A stretch of 64,000 nucleotides of DNA, from NCBI GenBank assembly GCA_032622095.1, contig CP136063.1:82251980-82315979 (forward strand), in the 5' to 3' direction. The stretch's first letter is position 1; each line of letters begins with the position of its first letter. This document shows positions 24,646-49,300 of this stretch, in pieces. This DNA is from Siphonodentalium dalli (lineage: Eukaryota; Mollusca; Scaphopoda; Gadilida; Siphonodentaliidae). A model generated the notes under the pieces. The model did not search any database, was not told where the DNA came from, and worked only from the letters and a program-made list of their open reading frames with translations. The translations under genes and the position numbers were made by a program.

Positions 24646-24682
<37 letters not shown>

Positions 24683-24833
24683 GCCCAAACGGCACCAATT
24701 TGGAGTCTTTAAATCACACGATTAGATTCCTCGTATCATGAAGAAAAATTGGTGAATATTTTAATCAATCTTTGTGCCTCTCTCCCCTTCGGTGAACAAC
24801 TGACTCGAAAGTCGCCACCTTAGACAGCTTTAA
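23400..24833 (+). repeat. diverged tandem array, left part
   Basis: Repeated modules ATCATGGAGATGATTATGTA, AATTTAGTGCCCCC and CACCAATTTGGCGTCTTTAA recur at about 150 bp, with a higher-order period near 590 bp (compare 23676 with 24272, and 23792 with 24372). Includes a CT microsatellite at 24654-24681. ORFs across it are repeat artefacts. Confidence 0.75.
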
Positions 24834-25327
24834 AGGCACGTGCGGCCTTAATTGTCGAAAATATTCATATTTGTTCCAAACACCGTAAACAGAAAAACAG
24901 TAAAACGCATACAGTTCCGTTCATATATACCATGACCATCGCGTAAACAGCATGTTATCATAAAGACCTACTATATTTTACCCAAGCAAGAGCCTGATTG
25001 TGTTACAGAAGACAGCACAATGCTACTGGCTAATCACACACAAATGGCATAAACGCTCTTTATTAGTTCCATATCAGGTATTCACCAACAAAGAACGCTG
25101 TTTATGTTTACCATCATAATATAAACAAACACCAGAAAAGTAACTTTTTACGCTTTTGTTTACATAACAATGGTCAAACATATGACCATAACATACTGTT
25201 TATGCGAAATTTCTTATTTGTATACGGACAAAGTCTATCTACATTTTGATGTTCTTTCTGTTTGTGGCGGATTTTGAAGGGTGGAGATATTTTCACAGGA
25301 TACCCACCGCCAAGGCCAACCGTGTCT
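24834..25327 (+). mobile_element. TTAA-flanked MITE family D, copy 1
   Basis: 494 bp between TTAA (24830-24833 and 25328-25331). Starts AGGCACGTGCGGCCTT; ends AAGGCCAACCGTGTCT. Similar throughout to 49976-50478. It splits the tandem array: joined flanks restore the array module ending TCTTTAAACCACA. Confidence 0.85.
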
Positions 25328-25800
25328 TTAAACCACACCATTATACTCCTGATATCATGGAGATGATTATGTATAAATTTGGTGTTAATCGGCGACTAAA
25401 CAAATTCTTATCAAATGTAGTTTGCTTGCCTCCCCCGTCTCTCATCCAAACGACACCAATTTGGCATCTTTTAATCATACAATTAGATTCCTTGTATCAT
25501 GGAGAAGAGTGTGTATGAATTTGGTGGAAATCGGAGCTAAAAAGTTAATTTTATCAATTTTGGTGCCCCTATCACCTTCTGTACAACATGACACGAACGG
25601 CGCCAATTTTGACATCTTTAAACCACATCATTATAATTCTCATATCATGCAGATGATTATGTATACGTTTGGTGGGAATAGGCGAACATTTTTTGCTGCC
25701 CTCCCCTTTCTGCTCCTGACAACAACAGCGTCACTTTATAAAATTCTAACCTGCACCATTATCTTCCTTGTAAAAATCTACCCATGTTAGATCCCTTTGG
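25328..25800 (+). repeat. diverged tandem array, right part
   Basis: Same modules as 23400-24833 in the same orientation, resuming directly after MITE D. Confidence 0.75.
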
Positions 25801-26059
25801 TTTCATATAGATGGTCCCCCGCATATGCAGATTTCTATAGAACACAGACATGTATTATAACCCCAACATAGTCTGTCTGTACGGTCACAGATGGTAACTT
25901 TGTTATGGTATATAATATTCATGGCTGTCTGTTAGTCTAACAAATTAGTGTATATACAACAAACGTGCGATCATTGTCGCGCGACGGACGCAATGACATA
26001 CATGTCTCAATATCTCATCCTGGCTTCCGCTAACTCCGTCACCTTGAGCTGACATTATT

Positions 26060-27050
26060 ATGGTGACTACACCGCGGATAACATGTTTATATTGCGCTCC
26101 TTAATAGAGATGCTGAAATATAAGAAGAATGCATTCGTAGATTTCGAGAAGGCCTTTGATACCGTTTGGCGAGATGCATTATGGCTTAAGCTTATGCTGA
26201 AGGGAATAGATGGTAAAATAGATAGGGTAATTCAAAGTTTGTACACCAATATAAAATCACAGGTCTCATACAACGGACAGTTTCTCGTCGATTATTGGCC
26301 TCCAACAGGGAGTCAACTTATCACCCTTTTTTTTTCTCTCTTCATTAACCACCTTGCTGATTATCTACTCAACGCTATCTAACAGAAACGCTTTCTCGGG
26401 AAACCGAAGATAAACTGGATCATTACATGAAATTATTTATTATGCTAAATTATGCCGATGATACATGTACGTGCTCGTTTCGGAATATCGAAAAGATCTC
26501 CAATTCCAACTCGACTCATTTTACAGATATTGCTTAACATTGAAGTTGAACGTTAATATCAACAGAACTAAAATAATGTATTTCTCGAAGCGTGGCAAAC
26601 GGTACCTAATAATCTCCGCTTCACACACAACAAGTTACAGAGATATGGAGATTCTTTTCTGTGCTTGTACGCATTGTTTCATCGGTCTGGTTCATTTATA
26701 GAAGCGAAAAAACTTATAACAGAAAAAGCAACGAAAGTCATATGTATGCTGCCCTAAAACCGGAAGAAGTAATAACTTATCTATGCCTGCACACATGCAA
26801 CTCTTCGATACCCTTGTACTATACCTATACTTCTTTATGCTTGTGAAATCTGGAGCGATAGAGCCAAATCATTACCAGAACGTGTTCACCTAGAGTTCTG
26901 CAAGTTGCTGTTGAGAATAAGGGATTCAATCCCCAATTACATAATATACGGCGAGTTAGGAAGGTACCCATTATCAATTAAAATTAAAGTTAGAACAGCC
27001 AAATTATGTTGTAAACTGGTAAACAATGAGGGTACATATTTACATTGAAG
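26060..27050 (+). pseudogene. decayed non-LTR retrotransposon reverse transcriptase
   Basis: RT fragments across several frames. FVDFEKAFDTVW at about 26130-26168 is the palm motif with one catalytic Asp. It is followed by KLMLKGIDGKIDRVIQSLY and a decayed GxRQG...LF region. LNYADDT at about 26443-26464 holds the catalytic Asp pair in another frame. Then come LVSEYRKDLQFQLDSFYRYC (from 26474) and a C-terminal YGELGRYPL at about 26950. The order is normal for the RT domain of a CR1/Jockey-like LINE. Several frameshifts and stops make it non-functional; endonuclease and ORF1 were not seen. Confidence 0.85.
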
Positions 27051-27117
27051 CCTAACATATTTACGCTTGGAGCAGACGTGATAATCGGGTAACAGTGCAC
27101 TTGTACTGAGAGCTTTC

Positions 27118-27212
27118 CGATGAATGGCAACAAGCCATATTTCCGACTAAATCCTGAAAAATTATCCATAATTATGCTGTGGTTAAGGAGTCGATTATTT
27201 AGGGCATTACTG
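27118..27212. mobile_element. 5'-truncated mariner-like MITE
   Basis: GATGAATGGCAACAAGCCAT through GGGCATTACTG matches the right two thirds of 44982-45131, ending at TA. Confidence 0.75.
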
Positions 27213-29929
27213 TACAACTCAATGGGAGCATTTGGGTAATGATAAGTTGGCCATCCCGACAACGCCATCTAATCATTAGCCGCGTGTCCATAGCTATACG
27301 CCTATCACGGAAAAGCTGGTGCAGGTACACCGAATGGAAATGTGGACAACATGCTAACTTTTTCACACACAACTCACATAAATAGTAGACATTGAATGAG
27401 AAGTCGCACTACGTCATCATTGGCATTAGAACGTGCAGGGAACTGAGCCTCTTGTGCGTCCTTAACATCGCCTTGTATTGTTCTTTATGTTGTTAGGTTT
27501 CGATTTTCGTCCTGGATCACGCAGACATTAGCCCATAGTTACTTCTTGAAGCGACACGAGTCCGAGACATATTGTAAAGTTTCACATTGACCGACTGACG
27601 GCATCACTTAACGTACGACGCCCTGCCGATAGCGTGTTACATACGTTTGTACTTCGGCGTGTACCGACTTTTGAACAAGAAGTCGTTGAAGTATTGGACC
27701 TAGAACAAATTGTTGACAAGCTGTTTTCGGTGTCATTTTGTCGGGCAGAATTTGGGGAACAACATATCTAAAATCCGCTTTGGGGAAACTTTTCTAGAGT
27801 ATTTTGAATGAAAAAGGTCCTATTTGTGGTTTTTATGTATGATTTTCCGTTTCTTATGAAATATACACTTGAATGGCATTTGCATTAAAGTTATACAGAT
27901 GGCAGAACATGCAACATAAACAAATTGGTATTGTTGTCATGACAGATGTATGTAATTCCGTATTCAATTTGATTGTGGTCAAAATTGCGACCGAAAGTGG
28001 TAAAATTGGACAATTTTGGCTAAATTTCACCAGATCGTTTCCAATTATAAGAAATTTGATCTAAATGGCCATTTGCGCCAACATATACCATTTTAAATCA
28101 ATGTCTGATACATGTGAGCCATATCACGAGGACTGGGAATTTGGACCCTTCGGGGTCCCTCAAATTCGAAATATAAATGTACTAAATTTCTAAGAAAAAT
28201 CAATTATTATTTTAATGCCCAGAATAACCGCAAATCGAACACACCAGTCTACTGAATACTCATTAGGCGTTCCCCCAATGCATCTCATACTTAGGGCCCG
28301 GTTGATTCACTTTGCTGACATCACTATTCTGTGACGGACAGCATATTTTCACAATCAACCACGGCGAAATATGCGATGGAGAAGTGACCGTCGGCACAAT
28401 TTTGTACCACATCGGGAGGAGGTGCAGAATTGTGACGTCAATGACTGATTGACGTTATGGCCGCGCCCATTAAATTCATGTTTCAATGGCCGATTGGGAA
28501 TAGTTTTTCAATGATGTGAAAAACTGTTGTTCTCATTTGATATCTTGCAATTAACCAGCTAGAAAAAGCGGTTCAAGCAAAAATAAATGAAATTACCTCT
28601 ATCAAAATAATGATTTTGATGAGAATAAAGTACAGGAATGAGAATTTACCCTAAATATGTGGCCATTTTGTAACATAATTCAACCAACTTTATTTATTTA
28701 TATTCACTGTCAATATTGTGAACAATACAATGCATTCATTGTGTCAATAAATTCTGAGCATAAACTTAATTTGGCAAAATTTACGGAAGTTTATTTCGTT
28801 GGAGCAGCTATTGGTTGCCATTTTGGACAAACGAACACGTGATCTGTTCCACTAAAACTTCAGTTTTGGTTGATAATGCAGAACCTCACCACATAGTTGT
28901 GCTGTGCCAATGGTGAACAAACCATCCCCCGAAAGCTTCTTAGATATTGCATGTTCATTAACTCAAACCATGCATTGCCGACGTCTCTGAATTATAAATG
29001 GAATAGCAAAATCCCTGCTATATAGAGCATCGTCAGACTATGTTGTGAACTTGCTTTTTGAAATGGGATCTTATATATGAAGTCGTGGCGACAGGGTAGG
29101 GTTGGTGTGTCTCTCACCCCCAACTTTAGCCACATTTTTCAACAGATGGAATTTCATGCCTAGCACACCATCACTTTGTCAATGTCACGTTACAAATAGG
29201 TTGACATTGCTATCATATTTTGATTTTCCAATTAACAGTTGGAAAGTTTGAGGAATCAGTTAGAAAATTCCAACCAAATAAAGATGCAAATAGCAAGAAT
29301 TTCTCCAAGTTGGGATTTGGTCTGATTCATGTTGGGGGGGGGGGGGGGGGTGTTGAGATACCAGTTGGAAAATTGCAACCCCATGGGGAAGCAAATTATA
29401 ATTTCGTCTGGTTCAAGGTGCATGGTGCACTTGAATAAATTAAAGTCGGTTACTGGTTGCTCAAAATATTGGGTCAATCTATCAATAGTACAAGTGTTTA
29501 CTTCCAAGCAACACATCCCCCGACTGGAACGCTAATGACAACGCACGCCAGGTATACAAGCATGGATAATCAACACGATTATCGTTGTTGTTTACCCCCC
29601 ACAATTACCGCTAACAGAGATTACAAAACTGTAGAAAATATAAAATTCAATATTAATGCTTCTGGATTGGGTGACAATGAAGACCATCAGCGATCACATT
29701 CAGCTTTAAACATACTCAATGACAATAGAACGATACACGCGTTGAATTATCAGGCTGCTGAATTCGACGATCGAACTGCTACTGTTCAGGTTCGCAGAGA
29801 AGTGTTAGCTTCCTTAATCGGGGGTTCTAGGCCATGTCTTGCACGTGTCATTTCAGTACAAGCATTTTGCTAAAGTAAAACACTTTACGGTGAGGCATTG
29901 GACGAGACAGATCTGGCGACTTAACTGCG
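27213..29929. other. intergenic, no gene recognised
   Basis: AT-rich. A poly-G run lies at about 29333-29351. A 138-codon ORF at 29457-29873 has no recognisable motif and is not called. Confidence 0.35.
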
Positions 29930-31160
29930 GAGTTATGTGTTTATTTCTTCGATGCATGGGACTTCTGTTTTTCGCCATCGGTATGTGGTACTCATTGCCA
30001 CTGACATTTTTCTGTGATGCTGGTTAATATATAATAATGTTTGTTCTGCTGAATAATTCGCGCTGCCGCTTGCCAAATTTGCCGATGGAAAACATAATTC
30101 ACACTTGGGAAAAAATATTTTCATTTGGCAAAAGTTTTGGCAAGTAGCTTTTAAATTTGTCAAAAGGGTAAAATATTGGTCACTCAATAGCATTCATTTC
30201 AGGAAAGCATTGCAATTAATGGTGTTTTATAAGGTTAGGAAATGGTAACACCTCTATCAAGTTAATCTGTTAGCATTAGTATCGATGAAATTACTATAGT
30301 ATTTATTGTGGTTGCGTTTAAAATGATAATCCTCTTTTTATGTGCCCTTCTGGTGAAGCAACTCTTCAACAATTGTAATGATCGGTAATTGGTTGGTTGT
30401 TTTCCACCTGTAGTTTTCGGTGGAATTTCCCAATTTGAACCCACCCCAAAAGCGAGCTCTCCGTTGGGTTGGTTGTTCTATGATAAACCACAGTGGAGAG
30501 GCGAGAATTATTAATAATTAACTGCCTTCCTATCGATATCAAAAGTTTTTAAAACGGCGTTTGTCGAAATATAATAATAAAATTTAGCAGAAACTGATAG
30601 CATTTGGCAATTTATAAAAGAATTTGGCAAAAAATATTTTCATTTGGCAAAAGCAAATTTTGGTCCAGCGCGGACCCTGGCTGAATTGCTATGATTGCTA
30701 AAGCGATGCTGTTTATAAAAAGTACCGTTATTTTATTTAAGGTTGTCATTTTGGTGGTGCTTGGCTTATCTGAACAAATCGAGGGAAAAACTCAATGTGT
30801 ATAACACATGCATAACATGTATACATTAACATATTAAATAACTTTTTCTTACATTGTATAGCATTTTTTTTTTTTATATTCTTTAACAATTTTATAGTTT
30901 AAAAAAAATGTTCTTACATTCGTTACCAAATTTTATCATTTTTTTTTTTGCATTCTTTAACAATTGTTATAATTTTTTATCATTATTTCTTACATTCTTC
31001 AACAATTATTTTTATAATTTTTTTCATTTCTTCTTACATTCTTTAACAATTATAAAAAATATTATAAAATTTGTTAGGCCAATGCATTCTCTTACATATG
31101 CGAGGCGACCTATAGTCGACTCGCATATATAAGAGAATGCATTGGCACAGGGTTTTCGCA
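29930..31160 (+). mobile_element. palindrome-ended element, direct copy 1
   Basis: Aligns with 32227-33100 in the same orientation: CTTCTGTTTTTCGCCATCGG at 29960 and 32268, and GTATTTATTGTGGTTGCG-type sequence at 30298 and 32577. Copy 1 has an extra segment at about 30390-30720. Both copies pass through a T-rich stretch with ACATTCTTTAACAATT repeats and end in a 69-bp palindrome plus CACAGGG. Confidence 0.75.
31078..31146. repeat. 69-bp palindrome
   Basis: Same palindrome as 5900-5968, here at the end of a different repeat unit. Confidence 0.9.
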
Positions 31161-32226
31161 AAACATAAGGAAGCTCCCGTCTTGAAATAATGGCTGCTGG
31201 CCATAATTGAGATAGCAACAGCGCTGCCACTTTTAAAATATTTTTGAAATATACATCTGCTTAGATGTTTGATACAGCCATTGGCTTTTTCTAAAATCGC
31301 TTGGATTAGCCACACACCGCATAAATGACAACTTTAGAAAACAATAACAATACTGTTTCTTAACAACATCTCTTTGTCCGACCAGGATCCACCAGCATCA
31401 TAGAACATTATCAGGACGACTTAACACAAGTACAATTTAATAAGACGTTCTAATTTAGATATTTTGTGGACTATTTTCGTTATATGCTTTTAACATGAGT
31501 TTGGATTGTTTTTTTGCGATGTCAATAAAACGTTCAATGCACAGGTTGAAATCTAATGCCGTGGGGCCCGTAAAACAAAGCATAATTTTGTTTTGGCCTT
31601 AAGTATAAGAAATGAATGGTTATATTTTTATTTAACCCTTTCACGGCGGGAGCTTCCAGATTTTTTGCGAAAAGATTAATAATAAATCAATATTCGGAAT
31701 ATTGCAGAAGGGTAAGTTTTTTTGAAGATTCTCCGTAAATATTTTGAACCAAGTATGTTCTATAGTATATGGTTTTGTGCCGACAATGCCAGAATATTTT
31801 AAGACTAATCAATGATTAAAATTTGTTTAATTATTGTAATGAAAATCTTTGAGCACAGTGGTTTGTTTGAAACAAGAGCCATGAGTGTAAACACCATAGA
31901 ATCTAAAGTTTATATTCGTGAGAGAGTGTACTCTTAATTATGCATAAGAACTACACTTCAACATCGGGTGAATTTCATCCTCGGTGGTGTTCGAGTTACA
32001 GAACTTGCATATTATATCAGGCAAGTCCTCTCATCCACACCTACTTATATACTCTGTCCGAATAGCCACCACACAAAGGTAAATACTTTACTATTGCAAC
32101 TTAGTAGTGTGATTCCCCAATAATAGTAGGCGTTTCAAATATTCCCTTTCCGATCATTTTCATAAGCAACTCGCATGGTACTAATCAATATTCAATATAT
32201 AATGCAGCTTCTTGCAAACCGACAAC
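31161..32226. other. intergenic, no gene recognised
   Basis: Separates the two direct palindrome-ended copies. 31180-31320 resembles 37240-37430 (ATGGCTG, CCATAATTGAGA, GGATTAGC), so some of it is an older dispersed repeat. Confidence 0.35.
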
Positions 32227-33100
32227 ATAATATGTGTTTATTTCTTCAATACATGGGACTTCTGTTTTTCGCCATCGGTATGTGGTACTGAGTGCTACTG
32301 ACCATTTTCTGTGATGCTGGTTAATATATCATAATTTTTGTTCTGCTGAATAATTCGCGCTGCCACTTGCCAAATTCACATTTGGAGAAAAAATATTTTC
32401 ATTTGTCAAAAGTTTTGGCAAGTAGCTTTTAAATTTCTCAAAAGAGTAAAACATTTGTCACGCAATACCATTCATTTCAGGAAAGCATTGCAATTAGTGG
32501 TGTTTAATAAGGTTAGGAAATTGTATCACCTCTATCAAGTTAATCTGTTAGCATTAGTATCGATGAAATTACTATAGTATTTATTGTGGTGTCGTTTACA
32601 TTGATATTCCTCTTTTTATGTGCCCTTCTGGTGAAGCAACTCTTCACAATTGTACAGAAACGGTACCGTTATTTTATTTAAGGTTGTCATTTTGGTGGTG
32701 CTTGGCTTATCTGAACAAATCGAGGGAAAACCTCAATGTGTATAACACATTCATAACATGTATACAGTAACATATTAAATAACTTTTTATTACATTCTAT
32801 AGCAATCTTTTTTCTTATATTCTTTAACAATTTTATAATTAAAAAAAAATGTTCTTGCATTCGTTATCAATTTTTTTCATTTTTCTTACATTATTTAACA
32901 AACGTTATAATTTTTAATAATTATTTCTTACATTCTGTAATAATTTTTTTGATATTTTTTTTCATTTATTTTTTACATTCTTTGACAATTATAAAAAATA
33001 TAATAAAATTTGTTAGGCCAATGCATTCTCTTATATATGCGGGGCGACCTATAGTCGACTCGCATATATAAGAGAATGCATTGGCACAGGGTTTTCGCAA
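32227..33100 (+). mobile_element. palindrome-ended element, direct copy 2
   Basis: Shorter counterpart of 29930-31160, lacking the ~330 bp segment present there. Ends with the palindrome at 33017-33085. Confidence 0.75.
33017..33085. repeat. 69-bp palindrome
   Basis: Near-identical to 31078-31146. Confidence 0.9.
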
Positions 33101-33239
33101 ACAATCAGGAAGCTCCTTGCAAACCCACAACATAATATATTTAGTGCACTCTATATGTTGTATATACTCATTTCGAATTTCATCAATACCCCTATGTTTT
33201 ACATTTGTTTTTTTGAGTTTTGAGCTCATCTATTGCCTT

Positions 33240-33900
33240 CAGAATGACATGAGGGGGTCTAATGGTGTGGTTTAAAGATGCCACAGTGTTGGCGGGAAGG
33301 GAGAGTGCTCTAAACCGATATAAATATGTTTTGTAAATATGTTTTGTCGACGATTTTCATCAAATTTATATATAACCATCCCCATGATACAATGAATGTG
33401 GTTTAAATTTTAAGACGCCAAATTGGTGCCGTTCAAGTCAGGGATGGGGGAATGTACGGGAACCAAATACATGTAGATTATACTGTTATCGTCATTTTCC
33501 ACATATACATAGTCATCTCCATGATACGAGGAATTTGAAATGTGGATAAAGATGACAAAGTGGCACCATACGGGATTGGGAAAGGAAGATAACAAAATTA
33601 ATAACAATATTAAATTGTCGCCGATTTCTTCCAAATTTCATAGATATATATATAAATATCCACGAAAAGAAGAACCAATGGTGTTGTGTAAGTTTTCAAG
33701 AGTGGCCCTACCAGAGTCAGTTATTGTGTCAGGGGAGGGCATCATAATTGGGTTGTTCAAAGTTGGCAGGTCGGCCTTTGTGGTACAGTGCTATATGGGC
33801 ATCAGAACTGATAAAACCGTTTTGTTTCAGCAATTTCATTTAAATGTATGTTAGGCATCCACACAATACGACAAATCTAAAGGTGTGGTTTGAAAATGCT
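33240..33900 (-). repeat. inverted relative of the 23.4-25.8 kb array
   Basis: Read on the minus strand it shows the same modules (CACCAATTTGGCGTCTT, TCATGGAGATGACTATGTAT), diverged. Confidence 0.6.
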
Positions 33901-34099
33901 AAATGCTAAAAGTGGCACACCCTCTGAATTTAGGAGTCTGAAGTACGTGCAATTGTAAATATTTACTTGTCAACTCTGGACGAATTAATCACGATAACCA
34001 GAGCGATAATTATGCCAATGTTTGTCATTGCACATAATACATGCATGTATAAGACTGACGTTTTTGGTTGCTCTTTTACATATAGAATGGATGAGAATA

Positions 34100-34990
34100 A
34101 AAAGATCGCTGACCCCACGTCTGCTCAAAAGAGGTGGCTTTTTTGGGGTGTTGGCTTCTTTTAAGAACAAAAGTCAAATTCTGGTAAACATTGTATTCCA
34201 ACTTGACGATGACCCTTGTGTTCTCAAAGGTGGTTCAAACACCAAATATCAAGAGATTATTTTTTTATGTTTGATCAAGTTGTCACAATTTGTTTTATTT
34301 CTAATAGAACAAAGGCGCATAGCTCCGTTAATAACAATGGACCGTGACCAAATTCGAATTTGACGTACGTTTTCTGAACAGTAAACCATTTACCAAGTGT
34401 TACTATCGATAAATTATGTTAATTATTGCTCAAATTATCATCCAGACAACCCAAACATTTAAAAAGAGGCATAACTCCTCCAAAATAATCTGGCTATGAT
34501 CATCCATTTTCGAAGTTTACCTGCGTTTTCTCAACTGTCAGACATATACCAACCTAAATATCAAGAAATTATGTTTAATATTTCTCATTCGGTTTTCATT
34601 CCAAGTCGAAAAAGATGCATAACTCAGTCAAAAATTAACGGACCATAATCAAATTCGAAATTAATCTATGTTTCCTAAAATGTGAACAACATACCAGATA
34701 TCAATACATTATGTTGAGCATTGATCAAGTTATCATCCAGCAACCATAAATTGTGATTTCTAAGCTGAAAAAGATGCATAACTCCTCCGGCTAATAACTC
34801 CGCCAACAATCGGGCCATGATCAAAATCGAACTTCAAATGTGATCTACGCACCAAATTTCAACAAATTCTGTTGAATACAAGTTATAATCCAGACAATAA
34901 ACAACTATGAATTGTAAGTAGACAAGGGGGCATAACTGCTTCAAAAATCATCGGACCGTGACCCAATTCGATTTTGCGTTCTTAAATAGC
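34100..34990 (+). repeat. ~155-bp diverged tandem array, about 5 units
   Basis: GCATAACTCCTCCAAAA / GCATAACTCAGTCAAAAA-type modules followed by GGACCATGACCAAATTCGAA recur near 34310, 34465, 34610, 34770 and 34925. No coding signal. Confidence 0.75.
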
Positions 34991-35551
34991 AACTACATAC
35001 CAAATCCGATGGATTCTGATTCATGTAATAATGTTGAAATTATGATCTGGACATCACTGATGGACGACGGATATGCTAATTATAACAGTCCTCCGAAATG
35101 TCTTGGGGGACAGACAATAACTACTTTGAGCAAGAGTACTCTCTATTCCGATGCAATTTCCCTAAACGGAGTGTCCCACATCACTTTAACATGGGAACGC
35201 CTGGTTATCCTGTTTGTTATATAAATATTAGGTGGAAATCAGCAAAAAATATTCTGATCGATATTGGCGCCCTTGGCCTCACCACCCCTGACTCGAACGA
35301 CAACACTTTGGAATATTTATTTATACAACACAATTAGAATCCCCATATCATGGAGACGGATATATTTCATGGAAATCGGTTACAAATTTGTTTTTATCTA
35401 CATGTATTTTTGAAGCCCTCTCCCTCCGCGTCACTGACTCGACGATTTTAGAGCCCCTCTCCCTCTGCACCCCTGATTCGAACAGGCATAATTTGGCACC
35501 TTTAGACCACATGCACCATTAGACTCCTCACATCACGGAGATGATTATATA
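34991..35551 (+). repeat. further fragments of the 23.4 kb-type array
   Basis: Modules such as CCCTGACTCGAACG and CATATCATGGAGACG resemble the plus-orientation array at 23.4-25.8 kb. Confidence 0.5.
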
Positions 35552-35615
35552 ACAAGAAAACCATAGTCAGAAATGGTAACGCCCTCAAGATCATATTATT
35601 AGGCATATGTAAAAT
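35552..35615 (+). repeat. solo terminus of the ACAAGAAAACC repeat
   Basis: ACAAGAAAACCATAGTCAGA and about 45 following bases match the left end of copies A and C; the body is absent. It is the fourth occurrence of the tract that encodes the signal peptide at 40099. Confidence 0.8.
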
Positions 35616-35899
35616 ATAGTGGATCTTTAATGTAGTGATTGTGAAAAAGGTGTATATTGGAAACGGGTATGAAGTTGATTATATATAATTGTTTTTGTAT
35701 GTGTATGTAGTGAGCGCTTGGTGAGAAAGAATGTGAAAACATTTTTAAAATCGGACTTTCCAAACTAAACTTATGATATATAATTATATTATTTTGTAAA
35801 CACCGAGTCTATTGTTAACTTTTTTCATCGGCATCTATATCTAAATAGTGTGCATGTTCGCCGATTCAGTAGTCGTTTACCACAGCCATGTCGCATATA

Positions 35900-36290
35900 A
35901 TGAAAGTGTCAATGACACTGTAGCTCAACTTGGGAAGGAGTAAATTTTTTTGCTGAGCAATGAATAGAATAATAAAGAAGAAGGAGCGTAAACTAGAGGT
36001 CATCCCGAAGATCCGTACGAAGTTTGGTGATGATCGGATGAGGGATGTGGTATGTAGGGTGCGCCAAAGGATGTAGTCATACAAAGAGTAAATTACGAGA
36101 TGGCGCTGGCGGCCATGTTTTTCAACGAATTTAGATCAAAATAGGAGGCTCCCATCTAGAGGTCACCCCATAGATCCATATGCAGTATGGTGATCATCAG
36201 ATGAGGGACGTGGTATGTAAGGTGTTCCAACGGATTTAGCCATGCAAAGAGTACAATCCAAGATGGCTGCCGTGGCACCTTGGTTAATCG
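35900..36290 (+). mobile_element. pearl-like array fragment
   Basis: Left arm GAAAGTGTCAATGACACTGT and TGTAGCTCAAC as at 9199, followed by two to three ~160-bp units with GGTGATGATCGGATGAGGGA and CTCCCATCTAGAGGTCACC. Confidence 0.65.
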
Positions 36291-37903
36291 GTCTCTAGAT
36301 GTACAAAAACAACCCCTTTTATCGAATAAATACATTTATGTTGTGCAATAGATGATAATCATCATTTTATTAAAACTTTTAGATTCGGGCATGTCTTTAT
36401 CGCTGTAAAAATACAATTCTAAAGCTGTTCCTCCGACTGGCAACTTTGGTCAGAATGTTATAGAAAACTACTGAGTATTTCCGGACAAATAAGGTATCAA
36501 CTTGTCTTTAAAAAAATTTAGGAAATGCTCGTAACAGTCATAATGCTATGTTTTATGTCAGTTCCTCATACATATTATGTTTTTGTGCGTTTGCACAGTT
36601 TGAATTCGTGGTACTCACCAACCTCGAAACCACGTGATTCCCCACCGTGCATATATCAGCTATATAGGAAATTCCAACACAATGGGTGGAAATGAAATGC
36701 ACCAGACATTTCTCGGAATCTCGATTTGGTTTAAGGGTGTGCAGTTTGTAATTTCAACCCCCTTTCCAATGGAGACCATCTATATATGTCTACACCCCTG
36801 GTAAAGTGGTCCCGATAACATGCCGTGATGCTGGTGGGGCTTGTTGGATAAGAGAGATAACAGAATCGCTACCATATTGGACCCACCAGCCCAGTTAGGC
36901 GCATTCAGTGCTACAGGTCAAAGTTCCGGAGCGCCATCCATGAATATTCAAAACTCCTTATATGGAATGCTACTCCAGAACTTTGAGCTGTAGCACTTAA
37001 ACCGCGGAATGGGGGCTGGATGGATCCATTATGTCAGCGACTCAGTGATCTCGCTTATTGCTATGATGCTGAGTGAGAAAACTAATGCTGTCAGGAAAAG
37101 TACATTGTTCTCAAGTTATAATGCTGTCAGGAAAAGTAAATTGTTCTCAAGTTGTAATTTTCGCGGTCTTTGACTGGCCCGAAAGAATCGAGAAAAATAC
37201 ATAATGTTTATAATATATTCAAAACAATATATGTTATAAAACTATTTTAATAATGGCTGTGTTCGTTGCAGCAAACCGACCATAATTGAGACGGTTATTC
37301 GTGTAGTTTTTCAAACATCAATGCAGCCATTATTAATGTATTTTTGACAGATATGTTATTTAATGCTAAATACATACATACACCAGTTTTTTTTCCTCTC
37401 AAGTTGCTCGGATTAGCGAAACACCCCAAAACGATAACGAAACACCCCAAAAACCATAACTCTATAAAATATAAAGGAACATTTTCTTAACAGCGTCCAA
37501 ATTCCATGCAGCGCCCTCTACGTTAGCACTGCGATATAGCACTGCCACAAGGATGGTACTTTGCGGACCGATACATATTTTTTTACATATCGTCAGAACT
37601 ATATTTAGTTACCTATTATCTTATTTGACCACCACAAATTTGCAATAATGGCAATTCTTTCGGTATTGATAAGAAGGATATAGACTGAGCCAGACATAGA
37701 CAATTTTAGTCCTAAAACATAAGAACTAAGAACACGTAAGAAATCCTTTCCAAATGTCCTTATGGCAGTGGTATCTCAGCGGAGCGATGGGAGATAACTC
37801 TGCACGGAGTTTGAACAGCGTCAGTTAGCCACCAGCACCATTATAACAAATCATCGGGACCCACCAGCATCATAGTAAATTAGCAGGACCACTTAACCAT
37901 TCG
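36291..37903. other. intergenic, no gene recognised
   Basis: No coding features. A short direct repeat, AATGCTGTCAGGAAAAGTA, occurs twice within 37086-37140. Confidence 0.35.
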
Positions 37904-40153
37904 TTTATTACGCGACAAGGTGGTGTAAGCTGTATTACAGTATTTCATGTTAGAGCGGACGATCGATAATCCACTGGGCGAATGTATTATGGTTAGGTAT
38001 TTATTCGTACTTGAGTATAAACCGTACCGATAGAGTGACGATAGTCCAACAAAGATTAGCACATGTGTTTACGTCACCGGTGTAATTGTGGGGACATGTT
38101 TCTATTGTGAAGATTCGCTATCCCGAAGGTCCACTATTCCGAAGGTTCTCTATTCTGAATACTTGCTATTTCGAAGGTTCACTATTCCGAAGATTCGCTA
38201 TTCCGAAGGTTCTCTATTCCGAAGGTTTTTGTTATTTTTAGGTTAATTCTATATTCTAAAGTATTGAGAGGGTTCATTATCACGAAGATTCTTTTTATGG
38301 AGTGTGCGCTCACATCCGAACTGATCCTGCGCGCATACCGATACAGATACAGGAGGAAATAACTTAGAACATTAAATGTGATTTTGTTTTGTTTTCGTGG
38401 GTTTTCTTGAGATTTAATGTGATTACGTGGGCCCATACCTTTGAACTCTTGGCATATAATATGAATGTTGTGGTATATATGGACCCTCCTGCATTGGGAC
38501 ATGACACAGGTACAGTTGACTTAAGTGCTGCTCTGTGCGGGCTCCAATTTGGGGTTCAATATTTTAAGGGCCAAATTTTATAATTTTATGGGCCCATACC
38601 TTTGAACTCTGGGCATATGATATGAATATTGGGGGGGGGGGATGTCTCTATTCCGAAGGTTCACTATCCCGAAGGTACACTATTCCGAAATTTCTCTGAA
38701 TGTTCGCAATTCCGAAGGTTCACAAATCCGAAGGTTCACCAATCCGAAGTTTCGCTATTCCGAAGGTTCTCTATTCCGAAGGTTTTTGTTATTTTAAGGT
38801 TAATTCTATATTCTAAAGTATTGAGAGGATTCATTATCACGAAGATTCTTTTTATGAAGGAAATAACTTAAAACATTAAATGTGATTTTGTTTTGTTTTC
38901 GCGGGTTTTCTTGAGTTTAATGTCATTACGTATGACCTTATTTCTCATTACATATTCACGCCAAGCAGCCCACACAATTGCTATGTTTCCATGCGATTTA
39001 ATGTCATTACGTGTGACCTAATATCTCAATAATCTGAGGCAAGAGTACGCCTGCTAAAGGCGAATTATAACAGTGGGGCTATAACGCTCAATGAATACTG
39101 GAGGCTATAACAAACTGCGCAGCAGAATATCGCTGACTAGACGAGTATGAGATGAGCCTAACTGCAATTGTGACTTTGTTTAAAGGCCCACTTAATTTTC
39201 GAGTCATTGATTTTTGTTATAGTATATACGGTTTTAATAACAATTTATGCCATAAAATTTGAATAAAATACTATAATTCATCACCATTTGAAACGCAGAA
39301 TAATTCTATCTCCTAGTTTGAAACACCTTTAAAAAACCGCGACAAGTCGTGCGTCGTATATCTAGCAATTAGCAACTAAAATGTTCTCTTCGGCTTTCCA
39401 TAGATTTCAACGTAATTTGATACTTAGGGGTATTTGTGTCCGGGAAGTGTTGTGGACGGGTCAAATCGTGATCCCGATCTGATCTTGACCTTTAAAACTG
39501 TCAATGCAAGGTCAATTTGGGTAAAACGGACGAATTTCGGCGAAATTTGATACCTAGGGATACTTTTGTCCGAGGAGTGTTATTAACGGGTCAAATCGTG
39601 ACCTCGGCGTAACCTTAACCTTCAATGTGGTCAATCAAAGGTCAAATCGGGTAAAACGGATGGATTTCGATTAAATTTGATACTTTTGTCGGGGGAGTGT
39701 TTTGGACGGGTCAAATCATGACTCCGACCTTACCTTGACCTTCAAAAATGTTAATTAAAGGTCAAGTGGGGTAAAACGGACGGATTTCGACGAAATTTGA
39801 TACCTAGGGATATTTTTCTCCGGGGCGGGGGTGTTTTGGACGGGTCAAATCATGACCCTGACCTGACCTTGACTTTCGAAATAGTCAATTCAAGGTCAAA
39901 TCGCGCCTTTCGTCGGAAATCAGATGGGAAACAGCCCGGACGAAGTCGGGCCCATCAGCTTGTGTAATAAAGAAGACAGTTTGAAGAATGTAATGTATAA
40001 CACGAGAAACGGGAAAACTTGAAATATGGAAGTATGCAAATTTCCCACATAAAATTTGAAAGCTAGTTTATAGTATAATTATATTATAATTTATATTTAT
40101 GGCTAATAATATGATATTGGTGGCGTTACCATTTCTGACTATGGTTTTCTTGT
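37904..40153 (-). mobile_element. copy B of the ACAAGAAAACC repeat, inverted relative to A
   Basis: About 2250 bp matching copy A in reverse, with the same order of parts: CTTCGGAATAG-type repeats at 38105-38235 and 38640-38790, and ~131-bp GGTCAAATCATGACC units at 39400-39900. The terminal tract ends ...ATGGTTTTCTTGT at 40153. Its end abuts or forms the first coding exon of the lectin-mucin gene. Confidence 0.75.
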
Positions 40154-40354
40154 CCACAGATGTCCGATGTTCAGTCGATCTAGCGGCTGGTAAACCGACA
40201 ACAGAGTCGTCGACGTCGGCGCCTGGTTTCGGTGCAGAGAATGTAGTGGATAACAGTTACATCACATTTTCTCGGACATTGCCGGAGATGTCTCCATGGA
40301 TACGGGTAGACCTACAGGATGTCTATGACATACACGAGGTCTGGGTCACTTCTG
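40099..40354 (+). CDS. exon 1: signal peptide and first half of F5/8C domain
   Basis: The ATG at 40099 opens a hydrophobic run (ILVALPFLTMVFLS, residues 6-19), then VDLAAGKPTTESST and PWIRVDLQ. The donor is TCTG|GTAAGT, phase 1. The first ~55 coding bases belong to the end of repeat copy B. Alternative model: TTTTCTTGTCCACAG at 40145-40159 is a good 3' splice site, so coding could start at 40160 as a symmetric 195-bp phase 1-1 exon with a signal-peptide exon further upstream. Sequence alone cannot decide. The ATG has G at +4 but T at -3. Confidence 0.65.
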
Positions 40355-43300
40355 GTAAGTTTGGTTTAAGCCTTTCTTTACCAAATGAATTCTCCCATTC
40401 GGTTATAAAAGTAAACATTGGCATTTGGAATAGTCTATTATTAATATCACGAAATCTAAGCAGACGGCAGCTAACACCAGTGCATACGGATTCCTATGCA
40501 TTGGTGAGACATGTTTAAATAATAAGTTTAACCGACAGTCATACGTTTGTTGAAAATATTATCTAAACATTTCTCACCAATGAATAGGAATTCTTCTGCG
40601 CTTGTATATTAGCTGTCTTTTGCTTAGAATGTCTGAACATTCCTCTATAATTGTCTGAATAATATACCATTTCAATGTATATCCTGGGGGAACTACTCGT
40701 CAATGAATATTTATACGTATATATTTACATATATAGGTTCACATTGGACTTATTTGAGTCTGAAATAAGTCCATAGTGGACTTTATACACGTTATTCCGT
40801 TCCATGGCGCGGACAATGCACAGTGAAAACTTTATAAAGAGCGTTAGTCAAGAAAGTTGATTTAGGTTCATTAATATGAACTTATTTGGATTGAAATAAG
40901 TCCATATGGAACTTATGTTTCGTTGAACGTTTAGGACCATATAGAGCTTATTTCACATCTATATAATGCCAATATAAGCGTATTTCAGTCCCATTAAGTA
41001 AGTTCACTATGAGCTTATTTCCGCCTGAACAGGCTGTATGGTCATATAGATGTCTACAAATACAAACATGCGGCCCGGCGCGATGTCAAAGCTGGTTCTA
41101 ACCCTGTTAGAATTGTGATCCACTCAAAGGGAGGGTATAACCTGATTTGTGTATCTGGACAAGTTTGTCAGTTGCTTTCTGGTATATAGGCGGTGGTTCC
41201 TACGTGCTGCGGAGTGATGTGATAAATAAAGAAATATATTTCTTAACTGATATTCGTTATCCACCCCTCCGTTAACTAGTATTTAGTATTCAGGAAGAGC
41301 TGGGTGATACCAGCATGTGTGTTGTGTGGTCCCCCTCCACAAGATACAATTTACATGCAACCCATATACACACACGATCGCGAATATTGGCGGCGGCCAT
41401 TTTGAATTATGGTGGGTGTGTGGACTGTGGAGTGCATGGAACTGGTATTATAGGGCCACCCAACAACACCAATTGTTTGGCCGAAATGTGTCAAGGGCCC
41501 AAGAAATACAATGGTTGCCCTATTTGCATACATCCGAATGGCGGCCATTTTGGATAGGGTGGGTGTGTGAATCCTATGGAATGGTTTATTTTATAGGCAA
41601 CTGCCTATATGTTGTCTACACAATTCCCAATCTGAAGCGATCGACTCGCAATGGGTAGTTGTTTAAATACATATTATGGACTTGTTCGAGTGCGATAAAC
41701 TTATAAGTTAGTTCTCAGGTTCTATGCCAACCTGTGGAATGTAGCATTCTACTAACATCACCGAAAATTTCAAAGAAATCGACCATACCACTCCATAGAA
41801 AACATCGTCCGAACTACGCTCAATTGTAAATATTTACATCTCAATGGAGCTTTCCACAGAGGCCACACCCACAGCGGTAGTCCCGCCCACTGGTAAAAAT
41901 ACTTTATCCACATAAATATTGTCTGTTACCCGAGATCGACTTCCGAAGTGAACACATCAGCACTTGCCCTTATGTTAACTAGCTGAAACAGACTCATGTA
42001 TATGATTCGTTCAAATTTGATCTTTTAACCAGTTTGATTTGAAAAAAATTATTTAGATTCAATTTTTGTTTTTTTTTAGATTGAACTTTGATCTGCTGTT
42101 GAACAAAAACAAAATAATAATTTGTTTTTTAAATTAAATTATTTTTATTTTCTTTTTATATTTTTAGATTGAAATCTTTAAAATTTGTTTTTTTAATTAA
42201 ATGTTTTTATTTTTTTTATTTTAAAATTTACTTTTTCGATTTTTAGATTGAAACTTCTTGCTAAAAAATTCAACAAAATTCGGGACACAACAATCGCGAT
42301 AAACTAACGCAAACGATTTCGCCATCTAGCATCATTGCATTTAATTAATATATAAGAATAACGGTGTGGTCAATTTGGATTAATATTCGTAAAAATAACT
42401 ACTCAATTTGAGCAAGATTATTCTCCATATCTATTTGCTCACCCTGTCGGAGTGTTTCACATCACTTCAACTGTTATAACAGTTTAACTAAACTGTTAAA
42501 CAAATTACTAAACTGCTTAAACAGTTTAGTATCATAAACACGTTGGCGCCAATACGCTGCTGTTCTTCAGAGAAGGTAAACTAGATCAACTAGATTTGCC
42601 AAAACACGAGTCCTAATTATAGGAGTATAGGAGTCCTTTACCTAACTTTTATAAGAGTTTAGTGAAACTGTTTAACAGTTTAGTGAAACTGTTTAACAGC
42701 TTAGTAAACGTTTTAGACATCTAGTAAACTGTTATAACAGTTTAGTATAATAAATCAAGTTAGCGCTAAAACGCTACCGTACGATTCTAATATTTTATAT
42801 TGTCGTTACAGGGGGGCAGATGAGCAACTTAATTGTCATGCTTTCAATGGATGATATCAATTATCAAAACTGCACTGCTTTCGCCGATGTTATCCCAGAC
42901 GGATCTGTCATCGTATACCCGTGTCAAGGTCAGCCCGCTCGCTACATCAGGGTCGTCTATGGAACGTCCGGGACTCTCGCTATACGAGAGTTGTTCGTTT
43001 ATAACGTGACGGGTGAGTAAAACCCCATAAGCGCACGTTTTGCCAAAATTCCTAATATTTCAAAATGTATTTTCTCAAATTCTGCCTGGAATCGTTTTGA
43101 ACACTCGATTATTGTGATATTATTTCATATTTACGATGTTATTCTCCTAAATTATGCAGTTCACACCTATATTTTTTAAAATACACTTTTGACTATTTTT
43201 ACCAGCCCGAATGGGTTAAATATATTAGTTAGACATCATAGAACAAGACCATTCTATACAAATTCTATAGTTTGCATCATATAAACTTGTGTTATTAATA

Positions 43301-46300
43301 TGGTATGAATCCGATTAGCTCAACCGAACCTAATAACATATCATATTAGTGAATCATGGTCATCATATCTCTGAAAATATTAGTACCAACCACGTGGGTT
43401 CGGGGGTCGCCATTTACACGAACACGAGATTAATCTTGACCCGAAAGTTACACACGTGACTTTCTAGAAAGACAGATCTAGCAATTATACACATTTATCT
43501 GAAAAAGCGACACTAACACGTCCTTGTGATATTTCGTTTGAGCGAAATAAATAAGTGATGTACCACGTCAATAATTGAAAAAAAAATACGACAAGCTCAC
43601 GAAAGATTCCACCTTGGCCCTTTATGTCTTGATCTGTCCAAAGCTGTTGACCAATAAACCACGGCATCTTACTTAAAAAATAGAACATTAAGGAATTACA
43701 GGGATGGCAAATATGTGGTTTCGAAGCTATCTCAATTAGAGTTGACAATTCGTAGAATTGAATGGAAGCAATTCAAATCTCTTTAAAATTTTACGTGGGG
43801 TTCATCAGGTATCTTTACTCTGGTCCATTACTTGTCTCATCTGCCTCAGCGATATGTCAAATTTAACTACTATGGAACTGCTAGCATATATGCCGACGAT
43901 ACAACCTTCATGGCCATGCAGTGGGACAAATGACGCGTTAATCCAAAGTTATGTCAATAACGAATTACGAAATCTATCTATCTGACTGGTGTTGATGCAA
44001 CAAACTAGCCATCATGCTAACAAAACATAATTTCCATCCAATGTCATTTTATTCGCTGCCCCGTGATTTTTATATATAAGAAATAGGTAGTTGGCTCGTT
44101 ATAAATTGTTCATTTGTGCATGAACAAATGATCATTGTTATCGAACAGACCATGTCTAAATCGACTCAGGTCTGGCCAACGAAAACTATTTGTGGTTGGT
44201 CTTCTGTAAGATTATTTTCATTTTTTTTTCAAGAAAATGTTTTTAATTTGTTTTTATAAAATTTTCAATGCCTTAGAATAGATCCATCTTTCAAGCAAGA
44301 TGTTGCCTTTAATACAGCATATATTAACTTACACAATTCTTTGAATCTTGCATGTAGATTATAAGATAATATAGTACACGAAAATAAATTATGAATATGT
44401 CAAAATAAATAAATAAAATTAAAAAAAAAATCTTACATGGACGATGAGTTCTGATCGCATTCTAGCGGCATTATATATAGTATGCGATTCAACGTAAGAT
44501 CGAGAGCGTGTGTTGAATAAATGTTGGATGGCGTGTAATATATAATATGCCACCTCGTAATATAGACTATACTTCCACCACCAGCTTATAGGCATGCGCA
44601 TCCATTCACTGAAAGTTTGAACTTTTGTTATTTACGAGTAGGCATGTTTTCTCCGGAATAGCTTGATCTGAGTTGTAGAGCATCTCAATATGCCGTTCAT
44701 ATCGAAACATCAATAGCCATGATATCCATAGGAGACACGCATATATAAGAACATGCACTGGCATATTATATGTAATGCTGCAGCAGCGCAGCTCCCGTCA
44801 CGAAAGGAATAATCACATTTTGTACCTGTCAGGTTGGACACAAAAACTAAATTAATAGACAGGACCCATGAGCCCTCTAATATGAGGTTTTAAACTTTTG
44901 ATGGCCATATAAATTTCCAAAACAGGACGTTTTTTTCAGCCTAGCAAAATTTCCATCGATCACATCCCAAACTACAGAGTACAGTAATGCCCAAAGTAAT
45001 TGACCACTCAACCACAGCAGAATTATGGGTAATTTTTCAGGATGAATGGCAACAAGCCATATTTCCGACTAAATCCTGAAAAATTACCAATAATTATGTG
45101 GTTAAGTGGTCAATTACTTTGGGCATTACTGTACTATGTAAAGGCAGCGTCCATAATTCCGTGTGATCACTTTTGTGATGGTTTTTGGATGTGTTACTTA
45201 TGGATTATTTTGTGAATGTTCGCCATGCATGTGATACATATTTTTGTTATTTTTTTTAGTTTATTGAATTAAAAAATGGAAAGTTATGATGCTCATTGCG
45301 AGTATTTATATTTTTTTGTACAAGTGGACATTTTGTTCAGGAAATTCTGAGTTATTTGACGTCAAAATCTGACCGTGTATCATTAATATCAGCTACATTT
45401 GTAGAACGAAATCACAAACGCTTTTTATCACATATTATCATTAAATGTTGTCTGTAACATCATTTGATTGTAGAATCTGGATCGAATGAGACTTCAGCTT
45501 GGGTTACCGCAACTTTCCAACCACCATTGTCTGACATCACGCCAGTTCCTGTACCAACGCAAGCTCCGTCAGGTCCAGGCCCTTCGGCATCAAGTCCAGG
45601 AGGACCCGGTCCGGCGCCAAATGGAGCTCCAACCCCAGCTCCTGTGGAACCAACGAGTGAAGGTGAGGTGACTTAAAATAAATGACCGCACAATTCCATG
45701 TCAGGCATACCGTAGGTGACATTAAGGAGGAGGTCAAGTGACCAATTTTGAATGGGCATTTCCATGCAAATCTCCGCAGCAAAAGTTACAGACTTGCAAA
45801 TATTTCTGGATGTGACTTTGTGCGGTTTGAAAACAATAGACATTTATCTGGCGGGTCGGCTTAGAATTTGTTCCATTAGAAAGTTGATGTATTTTTTTTT
45901 TTTAAATATTGATTTTTTCCAAATTAGGTCAAGTGTTGTAATTCCAGAAAAACATTCTCAAAAACAAATTTATAACAAAAGTTGACTCTTTACCAAGCCG
46001 AGCCTCCAGTTAAATGTTATGTCTGTTTAATAATATGGCTGCTTTAGTTCCCAGAGAAGTGCTTCATATATAACTTTTGCTGGTGAGATTTGCATGGAAA
46101 TCGCCATTCAAGATTGGTCACTTGACCTCCCCCTTAATATGGAAGTTGAGATTGAAAAACTTCTAAGTTCGGCCTTTTGGCATCTCAGACTATAATTATC
46201 TGTTTCCGATGCGGGAAAATATCGAGTAGTCAGACAGCTATGTTTTATTTCCAAACTAAGTCCGTACAACGGTAACATAAACAACTTTTCCATATTCCAT

Positions 46301-49300
46301 TCGAAGAATTTGTGATAAATTAAAAATGTTATCATGTATGCTATTTCAGACGAGATATATACAACGACGAAAACCAATCAGGTAAAAACAAGTTGCGAAC
46401 ATAAAAACCAGATATAACCAGATATAACCAGATGTAACCAGATATAATCATATTTGAACCTCGTTGAACATTTTACAATGCTACGGATTAGCAACCGTTG
46501 ATTAGAAATTGAGAAAGGCAGACATAAACAACCCGCTGATGAGAGAGTTGCAAAAAATGCTATATAGTGGCAGAAACTCTACTGAAGAACACTTAAAGGT
46601 ACTCAATCCGACATGGCGGTCCCCATATCATCAAGATACAACAACATTTCTTTAAAAAACGCTTTAGTTATCAAAATCAATTTATTGCGTATTATCACTT
46701 AAGTAGCACGAAATTTGGCCGTATTACGACTTGATTTTAGAGTTATCCATCTTCATCCGCAATTTTGTCCGAGACCTTCCGCTTGACCACGTGTTTCTAG
46801 GCCACATATTATTACACATCTCGAGAAATAACAAACTTCAAAAATCGATATCTGACCACTCTGAGCTTTGATGGGTGGATTCCTCGACTCGAACCAAATA
46901 TTTTTACCCCCCAAGCCAAAGAAATAGTAACTTAGGAGCGTCTGATCGGATTGAGTACCTTTAATTATGCGATGTCCCATTTATAAAAAATATAAGAGAG
47001 CGATTCTTTACAGAACTAAACTATCAACATAAATTCTTACTCATCTTGAGAAATGATAATCCCAAATAAATGTAATATCACCTGCAACATTGTCCAACTA
47101 ATTATAAACAAATGGTGTGAACCACCAAACATTAAACATTAATGTTAATGTTGCTATATTTATAATCACATTTTATTTTAGTTTTGTAATTGTTTTGACA
47201 TCGGCCTAGAGTGGGCGAATCTATCAATAAATCGTATCTTATCTTAGCTACGGGTACGTTCATGCACTCGCAAATTTGTCAGGCATTCTTTTTCAGCCAG
47301 TTAGGTAAAGAGAGCAACATTGTGCCAGAATCTGAATGCTAAAACCTTTATAAAATACATCTGTACCACATCTAACTATGTAGTACCACTAGTAGCGATG
47401 ATATCGAAATATATCACAGGAATAAATCATATGTGAAAGCAATGTGTCAGTAGTACCGAATTACCACACCCTTCACTTAAGATATTATAGGACTTCAGGT
47501 GTGTGATAACAAAGACTACTTTGGCAATAATATTATTTATTATCCTTACTCTCACTGTTGCACATACACTCATCCATATACCCATGAATTATGATAATGA
47601 TTGTGATTCTCAACCGCTTTACAAAACATCAAGTTATTCGCTATCACAGATAGCTATCTGACTATACAATAATAAATTATAAAATAAATTATTCAATTCA
47701 TAGCCATATACTAGATATCATTATGTTTCATTCAGACCCACTTTAAGCTTTTACATGTTAGTCTAAGGCTTTATACAAACTAAATTATCTCAACATTAAT
47801 CTTATATGTAAGCCTATTACCATTTATATAAGGAATAATAATGCCTCCCGCAGTTTAATATATATATAGGGATGGGAGGGTGGGAAATTTGCCAATGTTG
47901 ACAGTTCGAAATGTCGAGTCGATATGAATTAGATTTGGGCGCGAAACGCATTTATATGGATCAAGGTATTGTGGGAAATATTCATGAATCTTGAGTATAC
48001 TATTTAATTATGACCTTTGACACTAGTATCAATGTCAAAGGTCAAAATTAAGGTATATAGAATACAGGGGCGTATCCAATGATTGTTTCAGGTCTAGTAA
48101 TTACATATTTTGATTGCCAAAATAGCCCTTACATGTGGAACTATACCCAAATAATACTTCTCACGTCGTTAGATTTGGTAAATATGCATTATATATATGT
48201 GCATGTTGCCGTTCATATTCTGGCACCATATAGGGGTTTCAGGAATATTAAAATTAACTATTAACGGTCTTTATTTTCCCAAATATTCTCACGAAAAGTC
48301 TGGGCCATAGTTTATCCAACTATCCCATGAAAGTTCTTTATCACAGGTTATTAATAATCTGTCTTGCAACATAATTGTTATTGCAGACTATGGATCGTAT
48401 GCAACAACTTTGCCACCACTGCCAACTGGCCCACCTACCACACACCCTTTGGCACCGACAACGGTACCACCATCACCACCGCCTGCAACGCAAGCCCCAC
48501 CGGGTCCGGGTAAAGTATCGCCCGGTGAGCCGCCAACAACAGCTCATGTGGAGCCGACGAGCAAAGGTGAGGTGACTTAAAGGTACTCAAGTCGTTTCGA
48601 TGGTGCCCATATCATCAGATTCCAACAAAAACAATATTTTTTTAAATGCCGCTTCAGTTATCAGAATCGAATAATTGCCCAAAAATAATGCTAACTATAG
48701 TCAACTGTAGTATGAAATTGCCCAAAACCTGTTATTTATCAACATTTTGTTCAGCGAAATTTTGCTGGTTTGTCACAAAAAAGCCACTTGATTTTATAGT
48801 TATACATCTTCATCCGCAATTTGATCCGAGACCGTCTTCTCGTCGACTGTTTACTGGGCCACTTAAAATTATCGGTGCTGAAAAATAATACATTTCAAAC
48901 ATCGACATCAGATCACTCTGAGCTTTGATGGGTGAGTTCCTCGACTCGAATCAAATATTTTTTACCCTCGAAACCAAGGAAATTCTTAAGTTGCGGGCAT
49001 TAATTCGGATTATGCATCTTTAAAACAAACGACCGCATACAATACCATGTTAAGCATACAGTAAGTGACAATAATAAGAAAGTTTAGATTGAAAAAAGTT
49101 TCTTAACTTCGCACACCAGGCATAACAGACTATGTCTCTGTGTCCGATGCGGGGGAATATTATCGAGTATAGTGCGACAGTTATGTTTTATTTCCAAACG
49201 ACGTCCGCGTAACATAACGTAGCTATTTCGTTAGTTGTTAACGAAACACGAAACATGCCATACCAACGTCACCATTAAATAGGGAGTCCGTTGCACGTGC

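Follow-up and report, generated by a model that had tools for sequence, protein, structure and literature searches.

Does the end of a mobile repeat encode the signal peptide of a lectin-mucin gene in the scaphopod Siphonodentalium dalli, or has it become part of the 3′ splice site ahead of one of the gene's exons? We examined this in a window of 64,000 nucleotides (assembly GCA_032622095.1, contig CP136063.1, forward strand), in whose numbering all coordinates are given unless another contig or locus is named. The original prediction for this locus was that the gene begins within the end of a repeat, copy B, which would act either as an exonised secretion signal or as the pyrimidine tract of a 3′ splice site, with the real signal exon further upstream.

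Boundaries and structure of the repeat

Alignment of copy B to other genomic copies placed the start of homology at 37899-37915 in 16 of the 19 copies fetched (the aligned pieces of the other three begin further in) and its end at 40153-40162 in all 19, after ...CTGACTATGGTTTTCTTGT. In the gene copy the shared sequence stops at 40153, where the element ending in ...GGTTTTCTTGT meets host CCACAG, and the element end thus lies 6 bp before an exon boundary at 40160. The following features were assigned to the element.

37905..40153, plus strand: repeat copy B, a mobile element of 2,249 bp with Helentron-like non-autonomous (HINE/Pearl) structure; ends from copy alignments, flanks in 15 copies
37905..37928, plus strand: left end, imperfect subterminal palindrome TTATTACGCGACAAGGTGGTGTAA, compared among 15 copies; z −2.06 for the DNA fold
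39414..39903, plus strand: internal tandem array (TRF), period ~130 bp, 3.8 copies
40099..40153, plus strand: terminal 55 bases of the element, host-frame reading MANNMILVALPFLTMVFLS, ATG at 40099; most likely intronic
40128..40145, plus strand: 3′ stem-loop ACCAT-TTCTGACT-ATGGT, 8 bases before the element end; DNA fold weak, z −1.24
40145..40153, plus strand: element-derived pyrimidine tract TTTTCTTGT of a putative 3′ splice site

HINE, Pearl and DINE-1 elements have been described as non-autonomous Helentrons, with the bivalve Pearl assigned to the same group, and mite HINE families carry inverted repeats of 12-15 bp in subterminal position, 2-4 nt away from the 5′ terminus on one side and ~38-60 nt away from the 3′ terminus on the other (PMC4067079, PMC7492417; sections available to us). 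As far as these sections describe HINEs, our element has broadly comparable opposed subterminal repeats near both ends, the left one itself palindromic: ACGCCAC is the left-end form in most of 15 copies, and its counterpart GTGGCGT lies in opposed orientation at 40120-40126, 27 nt short of the element 3′ end. However, these repeats are shorter than the published ones, and the 3′ repeat lies nearer the end than the published range. The HINE palindrome of 5-10 bp, 8-35 nt from the 3′ end, is matched by ACCAT/ATGGT (5 bp, 8 nt; z −1.24). HINEs are described as lacking a target-site duplication and the element likewise has no clear one in the 15 copies for which both flanks were compared: at the mapped ends 11 copies have no shared flanking base and four share 1-3, while slipping the ends by 3 gives best shared runs of 1-5, uncorrected for chance. 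Internal tandem repeats, frequent though not required in HINEs, are represented by the 130-bp period array; high copy number is common to both, and the element has no long frames of its own (from 38000 on, plus-strand frames of at least 45 codons never exceed 81 codons, except for the one that continues into the host exon). Whereas HINEs insert at TT or T-rich sites, the element instead prefers TG 5-8 nt past its 3′ end. Because its subterminal repeats are short and shifted at the 3′ side and its insertion site is not simply T-rich, we call the element HINE-like only; it resembles the HINEs and is not filed among them. The Helitron_like_N profile has 151 matches in the genome, and a search for an autonomous partner with the same ends, covering the 9 kb downstream of two of these 151 Rep matches, gave no convincing shared 3′ end.

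The terminal tract is abundant in the genome. Its last 19-mer has 7,638 exact copies in the 2.23 Gb searched (nine contigs), compared with none for the reversed control, and the repeat match at the tract is far beyond chance. The three further occurrences predicted in the window at 6232, 11276 and 35552 are all present in reverse orientation (6306-6232, 98.7% over 75 bp; 11428-11276, 95.4% over 153 bp; 35618-35552, 88.4% over 69 bp). Among 40 other places listed for the tract, 37 are identical to copy B over the 94-96 terminal bases. The segments 6232-6306 and 35552-35618 share only ~70 bases of the 3′ end with 39000-41000, and several different elements may carry the same terminus. The element 3′ end also occurs four times each in C2:213659684-213660521 and C2:213790805-213791508, at a spacing of ~135-403 bases, as if the end part had been tandemly amplified.

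Over 1,207 positions compared with 20 other copies, copy B differs by nine private substitutions; it also has one gap of 10 columns, leaving aside 18 leading gap columns that reflect unequal starts. The insertion accordingly looks young, an estimate that leans young because 19 of the 20 comparison copies were the best matches to B.

The lectin exon has an old splice boundary

The host sequence to the right of the element contains these features.

40154..40159, plus strand: host CCACAG, last six bases of the ancestral intron end
40160..40354, plus strand: ancestral exon of the F5/8C (F-type-lectin-like) domain, length 195 nt, both boundaries in phase 1; donor GTAAGT at 40355
42812..43012, plus strand: second F5/8C exon, 201 nt, phase 1 to phase 1; acceptor TTACAG, donor GTGAGT

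Joined to each other and to the 5′ frame, the two exons match the Pfam profiles F5_F8_type_C_2 (PF22633; E 2.2e-9, 38.3 bits, cut-off 27.8) and F5_F8_type_C (PF00754; E 3.5e-7, 30.8 bits, cut-off 28.2), while singly exon 1 falls below the cut-offs and exon 2 matches nothing. The best relative of solved structure for the joined exons is the F-type lectin FBP32 (E 5.6e-7). Downstream of the lectin exons, two P/T-rich open stretches (45458-45673 and 48311-48577) end in the almost identical VEPTSEGEVT and VEPTSKGEVT, which suggests a duplicated exon, and 57510-59732 holds a 741-codon frame, mostly threonine-rich repeat and located in a region of strong strand skew, that looks like a mucin exon.

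A genome search with the 66 residues from 40159 on returned 12 matches: the gene itself, ten F5/8C-type exons and L064, which by eye is not an exon of this type and was left out. The paralog set consists of L060-L063 and L065-L070, six of which form one cluster on C7, so that about five lineages are represented. These exons are distant from the query (search E 9e-5 to 8.8); the F5_F8_type_C_2 profile matches all ten at E 0.0028 or better and seven of them above its cut-off. All ten have a phase-1 CAG acceptor at the position that corresponds to 40160, and the exon starts 4-6 codons before a conserved (N/D)(L/I)A motif, as it does at 40160. Since the acceptor occupies the same place and phase throughout the set, the exon at 40160 most likely begins at an old splice boundary, one that predates the insertion, which would make the element intronic. 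The intron ends of L061, L062, L065, L066 and L069 (CTGAC, T-rich, CAG) much resemble the element end.

The signal-peptide-like frame is shared by copies of the repeat

The proposal that the gene's first ~55 coding bases are the terminal tract of copy B is borne out at the level of the reading frame, as an ATG at 40099 and an element end at 40153 leave 55 repeat bases in frame. The ATG and the hydrophobic run were also correctly said to join the F5/8C exon in frame: one continuous open frame, MANNMILVALPFLTMVFLSTDVRCSVDLAAGKPTTESST, runs from 40099 across the element end, and its hydrophobic run reaches a 9-residue mean of 2.78.

This frame could be read as the work of an exonised element end, with transcription starting in or near the A+T-rich tail and translation at 40099 or 40111; the repeat would then give the n- and h-regions of a signal peptide and the host exon its cleavage region, DVRC/S. 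In addition to the strong hydrophobic run and its in-frame junction with the domain, several points agree with such an origin: the frame of the empty site, with ~19 open codons before the junction, has no ATG, so the insertion supplies one; scans of the upstream sequence, described below, found no signal exon; and cleavage after DVRC is plausible by the −3/−1 rule. DVRC/S at the exon start could equally be the cleavage end of a signal peptide split between two exons, and it agrees with either reading. The tract, however, reads as an open frame with its ATG identically placed in 68 of 72 distinct copies, a share that is biased upwards because the copies were retrieved by their resemblance to the tract, and the 'signal peptide' is therefore a property of the repeat and not of the lectin-mucin gene. 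None of the nine private substitutions of copy B falls in 40060-40153, a tract too short for evidence of selection. Beyond the open frame itself, then, the repeat-encoded signal peptide of the original prediction gained no support: the tract has no gene-specific change and its frame is common property of the copies. In one other locus (L073:559-1782) a copy is followed by a 408-residue frame in the tract's reading frame, which by eye looks more like the protein of another mobile element than a host gene.

A signal-like frame before an acceptor-like AG is expected by chance at about 3-5%. Among 549 acceptor-like AGs on both strands of the window, 88 are preceded by an in-frame ATG that opens a run of 12 codons or more, and for 16 the hydrophobic mean is 2.5 or higher, at least two of these 16 being the same repeat tract; when the tract was shuffled 20,000 times with its dinucleotides preserved, 4.7% of the shuffles reached 2.5 and 3.0% the observed value. 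An in-frame ATG just before the acceptor is also found in two of the ten paralog introns. This chance level, the equivalent acceptor in all ten paralogs and the occurrence of the same frame in most copies of the repeat count against an exonised end, as do the T at −3 of the first ATG and the need for a promoter to have arisen no more than a few tens of bases away from the start codon. We regard an exonised first coding exon as improbable; if it were real, a transposon end would have supplied a secretion signal.

The element end and the host AG form a putative 3′ splice site

The alternative that the insertion supplied the pyrimidine tract of a 3′ splice site fared better in its acceptor part, given that the place and phase of the acceptor recur in all ten paralogs, that the element gives TTTTCTTGT and CTGAC and that the host gives CCACAG; the upstream signal exon that it supposes was not found. 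Joining the two flanks of copy B reconstructs the empty site as ...GGACCACTTAACCATTCGT^CCACAG/ATGTCC (caret, insertion point; slash, exon boundary). The empty acceptor ACTTAACCATTCGT^CCACAG/A scores 6.2 and the filled one TATGGTTTTCTTGT^CCACAG/A 8.8 by a simple acceptor matrix not trained on this genome; by the same matrix the ten paralogs score 4.3-8.8, so that the filled site is level with the best of them. Scores as high as that of the filled site occur at 0.65% of the 2,901 plus-strand AGs in the window, and scores as high as that of the empty site at 4.0%. The filled site has a branch-point-like CTGAC motif, located inside the loop of the element's 3′ stem-loop at a computed distance of 22 nt from the exon. 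Five of the ten paralogs carry CTGAC at 25 nt, and these five all belong to the C7 cluster. No branch motif was found within the searched range of the empty site; by eye there is a TTAAC 15 nt from the AG, nearer than that range.

The same property was examined at 34 distinct insertions, chosen by position only (40 fetched, six with identical flanks dropped) and confined to the first 11 Mb of a single contig. An AG follows within 15 nt in 21 of them, and 12 of these 21 reach at least 4.3, the score of the weakest paralog, compared with 15% of 1,215 controls in which random 60-mers from the window replaced the element end before the same flanks. The 3′ end of the element thus appears to behave close to a portable acceptor needing only an AG. 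Inspection by eye of 69 distinct 3′ flanks (L001-L090) for other genes using the same end revealed a domain exon in none except the lectin-mucin gene.

The upstream exon and the possibility of an inactive gene

Candidates for an upstream signal-peptide exon, defined by an ATG, a hydrophobic core and a phase-1 donor, number nine in 20001-37904, compared with eight on the other strand, which is no real excess; under strict limits, 1-37904 holds one, compared with two on the other strand. In the paralogs, upstream stretches of 1.5 kb contain any signal-exon candidate in three of ten cases (L061, L065 and L068).

The scans having given no 5′ end, and the insertion being very close to the exon, the insertion might have disabled or silenced the gene, or the gene might not be expressed, in which case the tract would be used in neither way. 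Both domain exons, however, are open with donor and acceptor motifs, and the filled acceptor is level with those of the best paralogs; the intactness of the exons says little, because the insertion looks young. An inactive gene is, in our estimation, unlikely.

It is instead very probable, as judged from the sequence, that the element lies in an intron, that its T-rich end is part of a rebuilt acceptor at 40160 and that the signal-like frame is an intronic coincidence. A young copy of a high-copy Helentron-like element would have inserted into intron sequence, 6 bp short of an F5/8C exon that already existed, parting the intron's own branch and pyrimidine region from its CCACAG end. The CTGAC loop motif and TTTTCTTGT from the element, joined to host CCACAG, would then make up a complete 3′ splice site, slightly stronger than the empty one; an upstream exon would still be spliced to 40160 after the insertion, and the ATG with its hydrophobic run would be intron sequence that is open by chance. 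The signal-peptide start would be carried by that upstream exon. Both this exon and splicing at 40159/40160 are what we infer from the sequence, whereas the element boundaries, the copy number, the position and phase of the acceptor and the sequences and scores of the empty and filled sites were read directly. We consider it highly improbable that the Helentron-like 3′ end is a dual module, serving as branch point and pyrimidine tract in RNA and as signal-peptide core in protein, with both functions in use and a second secreted isoform starting in the element.

If the splice-site reading is true, it would explain why an insertion of 2 kb is tolerated six bases away from an exon, since of all that an acceptor requires the element lacks only the AG. 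As the genome contains 7,638 exact ends, an acceptor-like end might be a general cause of the persistence of such elements in introns.

Comparison with other mobile contributions to splicing

That mobile sequences contribute to splice sites is already known; in the present case the host AG and exon are left in place. The antisense poly-T tracts of Alu elements are transposon-donated splice acceptors: mobile T-rich sequence takes the role of the pyrimidine tract at a 3′ splice site, as may be the case at the lectin gene. In contrast to Alu, the AG at the lectin gene is the host's original, the exon appears ancestral and no new exon has been made.

In the maize RabGDI-alpha gene, an intronic Helitron replaces a host exon with an element-derived exon, as reported in transcripts (PMC6981192; sections available to us). 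Judging from that portion of the account, both cases involve a rolling-circle-type element within an intron that changes the sequence used in splicing; in maize the whole exon comes from the element, whereas at the lectin gene the element would contribute no more than the branch and pyrimidine part to an acceptor that was already there. The bat element HelibatN3, according to the part of the report consulted, carries a splice donor and captures exons downstream of it once mobilised in HeLa cells (PMC4778049). Among the papers listed by literature searches, none reported a Helentron end acting as a splice site or signal peptide, judged by titles and the beginnings of abstracts.

A TG dinucleotide is favoured beyond the 3′ end of the element

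The flanks of the element have a preference of their own, which provides a separate clue to its integration. A TG lies 5-8 nt beyond the 3′ end in 26 of the 34 flanks taken by position, compared with 9-15 of 34 in sixteen control windows. The same was seen in 52 flanks, where TG begins at offsets 3-12 in 47 and at offsets 33-42 in 22, and in 20 further flanks, where TG falls at offsets 5-9 in 17 flanks, compared with 4-11 flanks in seven controls. The 20 and some of the 52 are a selected sample, since they derive from a protein search with a query extending past the element end. This preference is not described in the portions of the published HINE accounts consulted. At the lectin gene the TG stands at offset 7, as bases 2-3 of the exon, and its location in the first exon bases would explain why the element landed exactly there. 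The base that directly follows the element is T in 19 of the 34 flanks and the left flanks are mixed, so that the TG 5-8 nt downstream is the stronger signal; at the lectin gene the next base is C.
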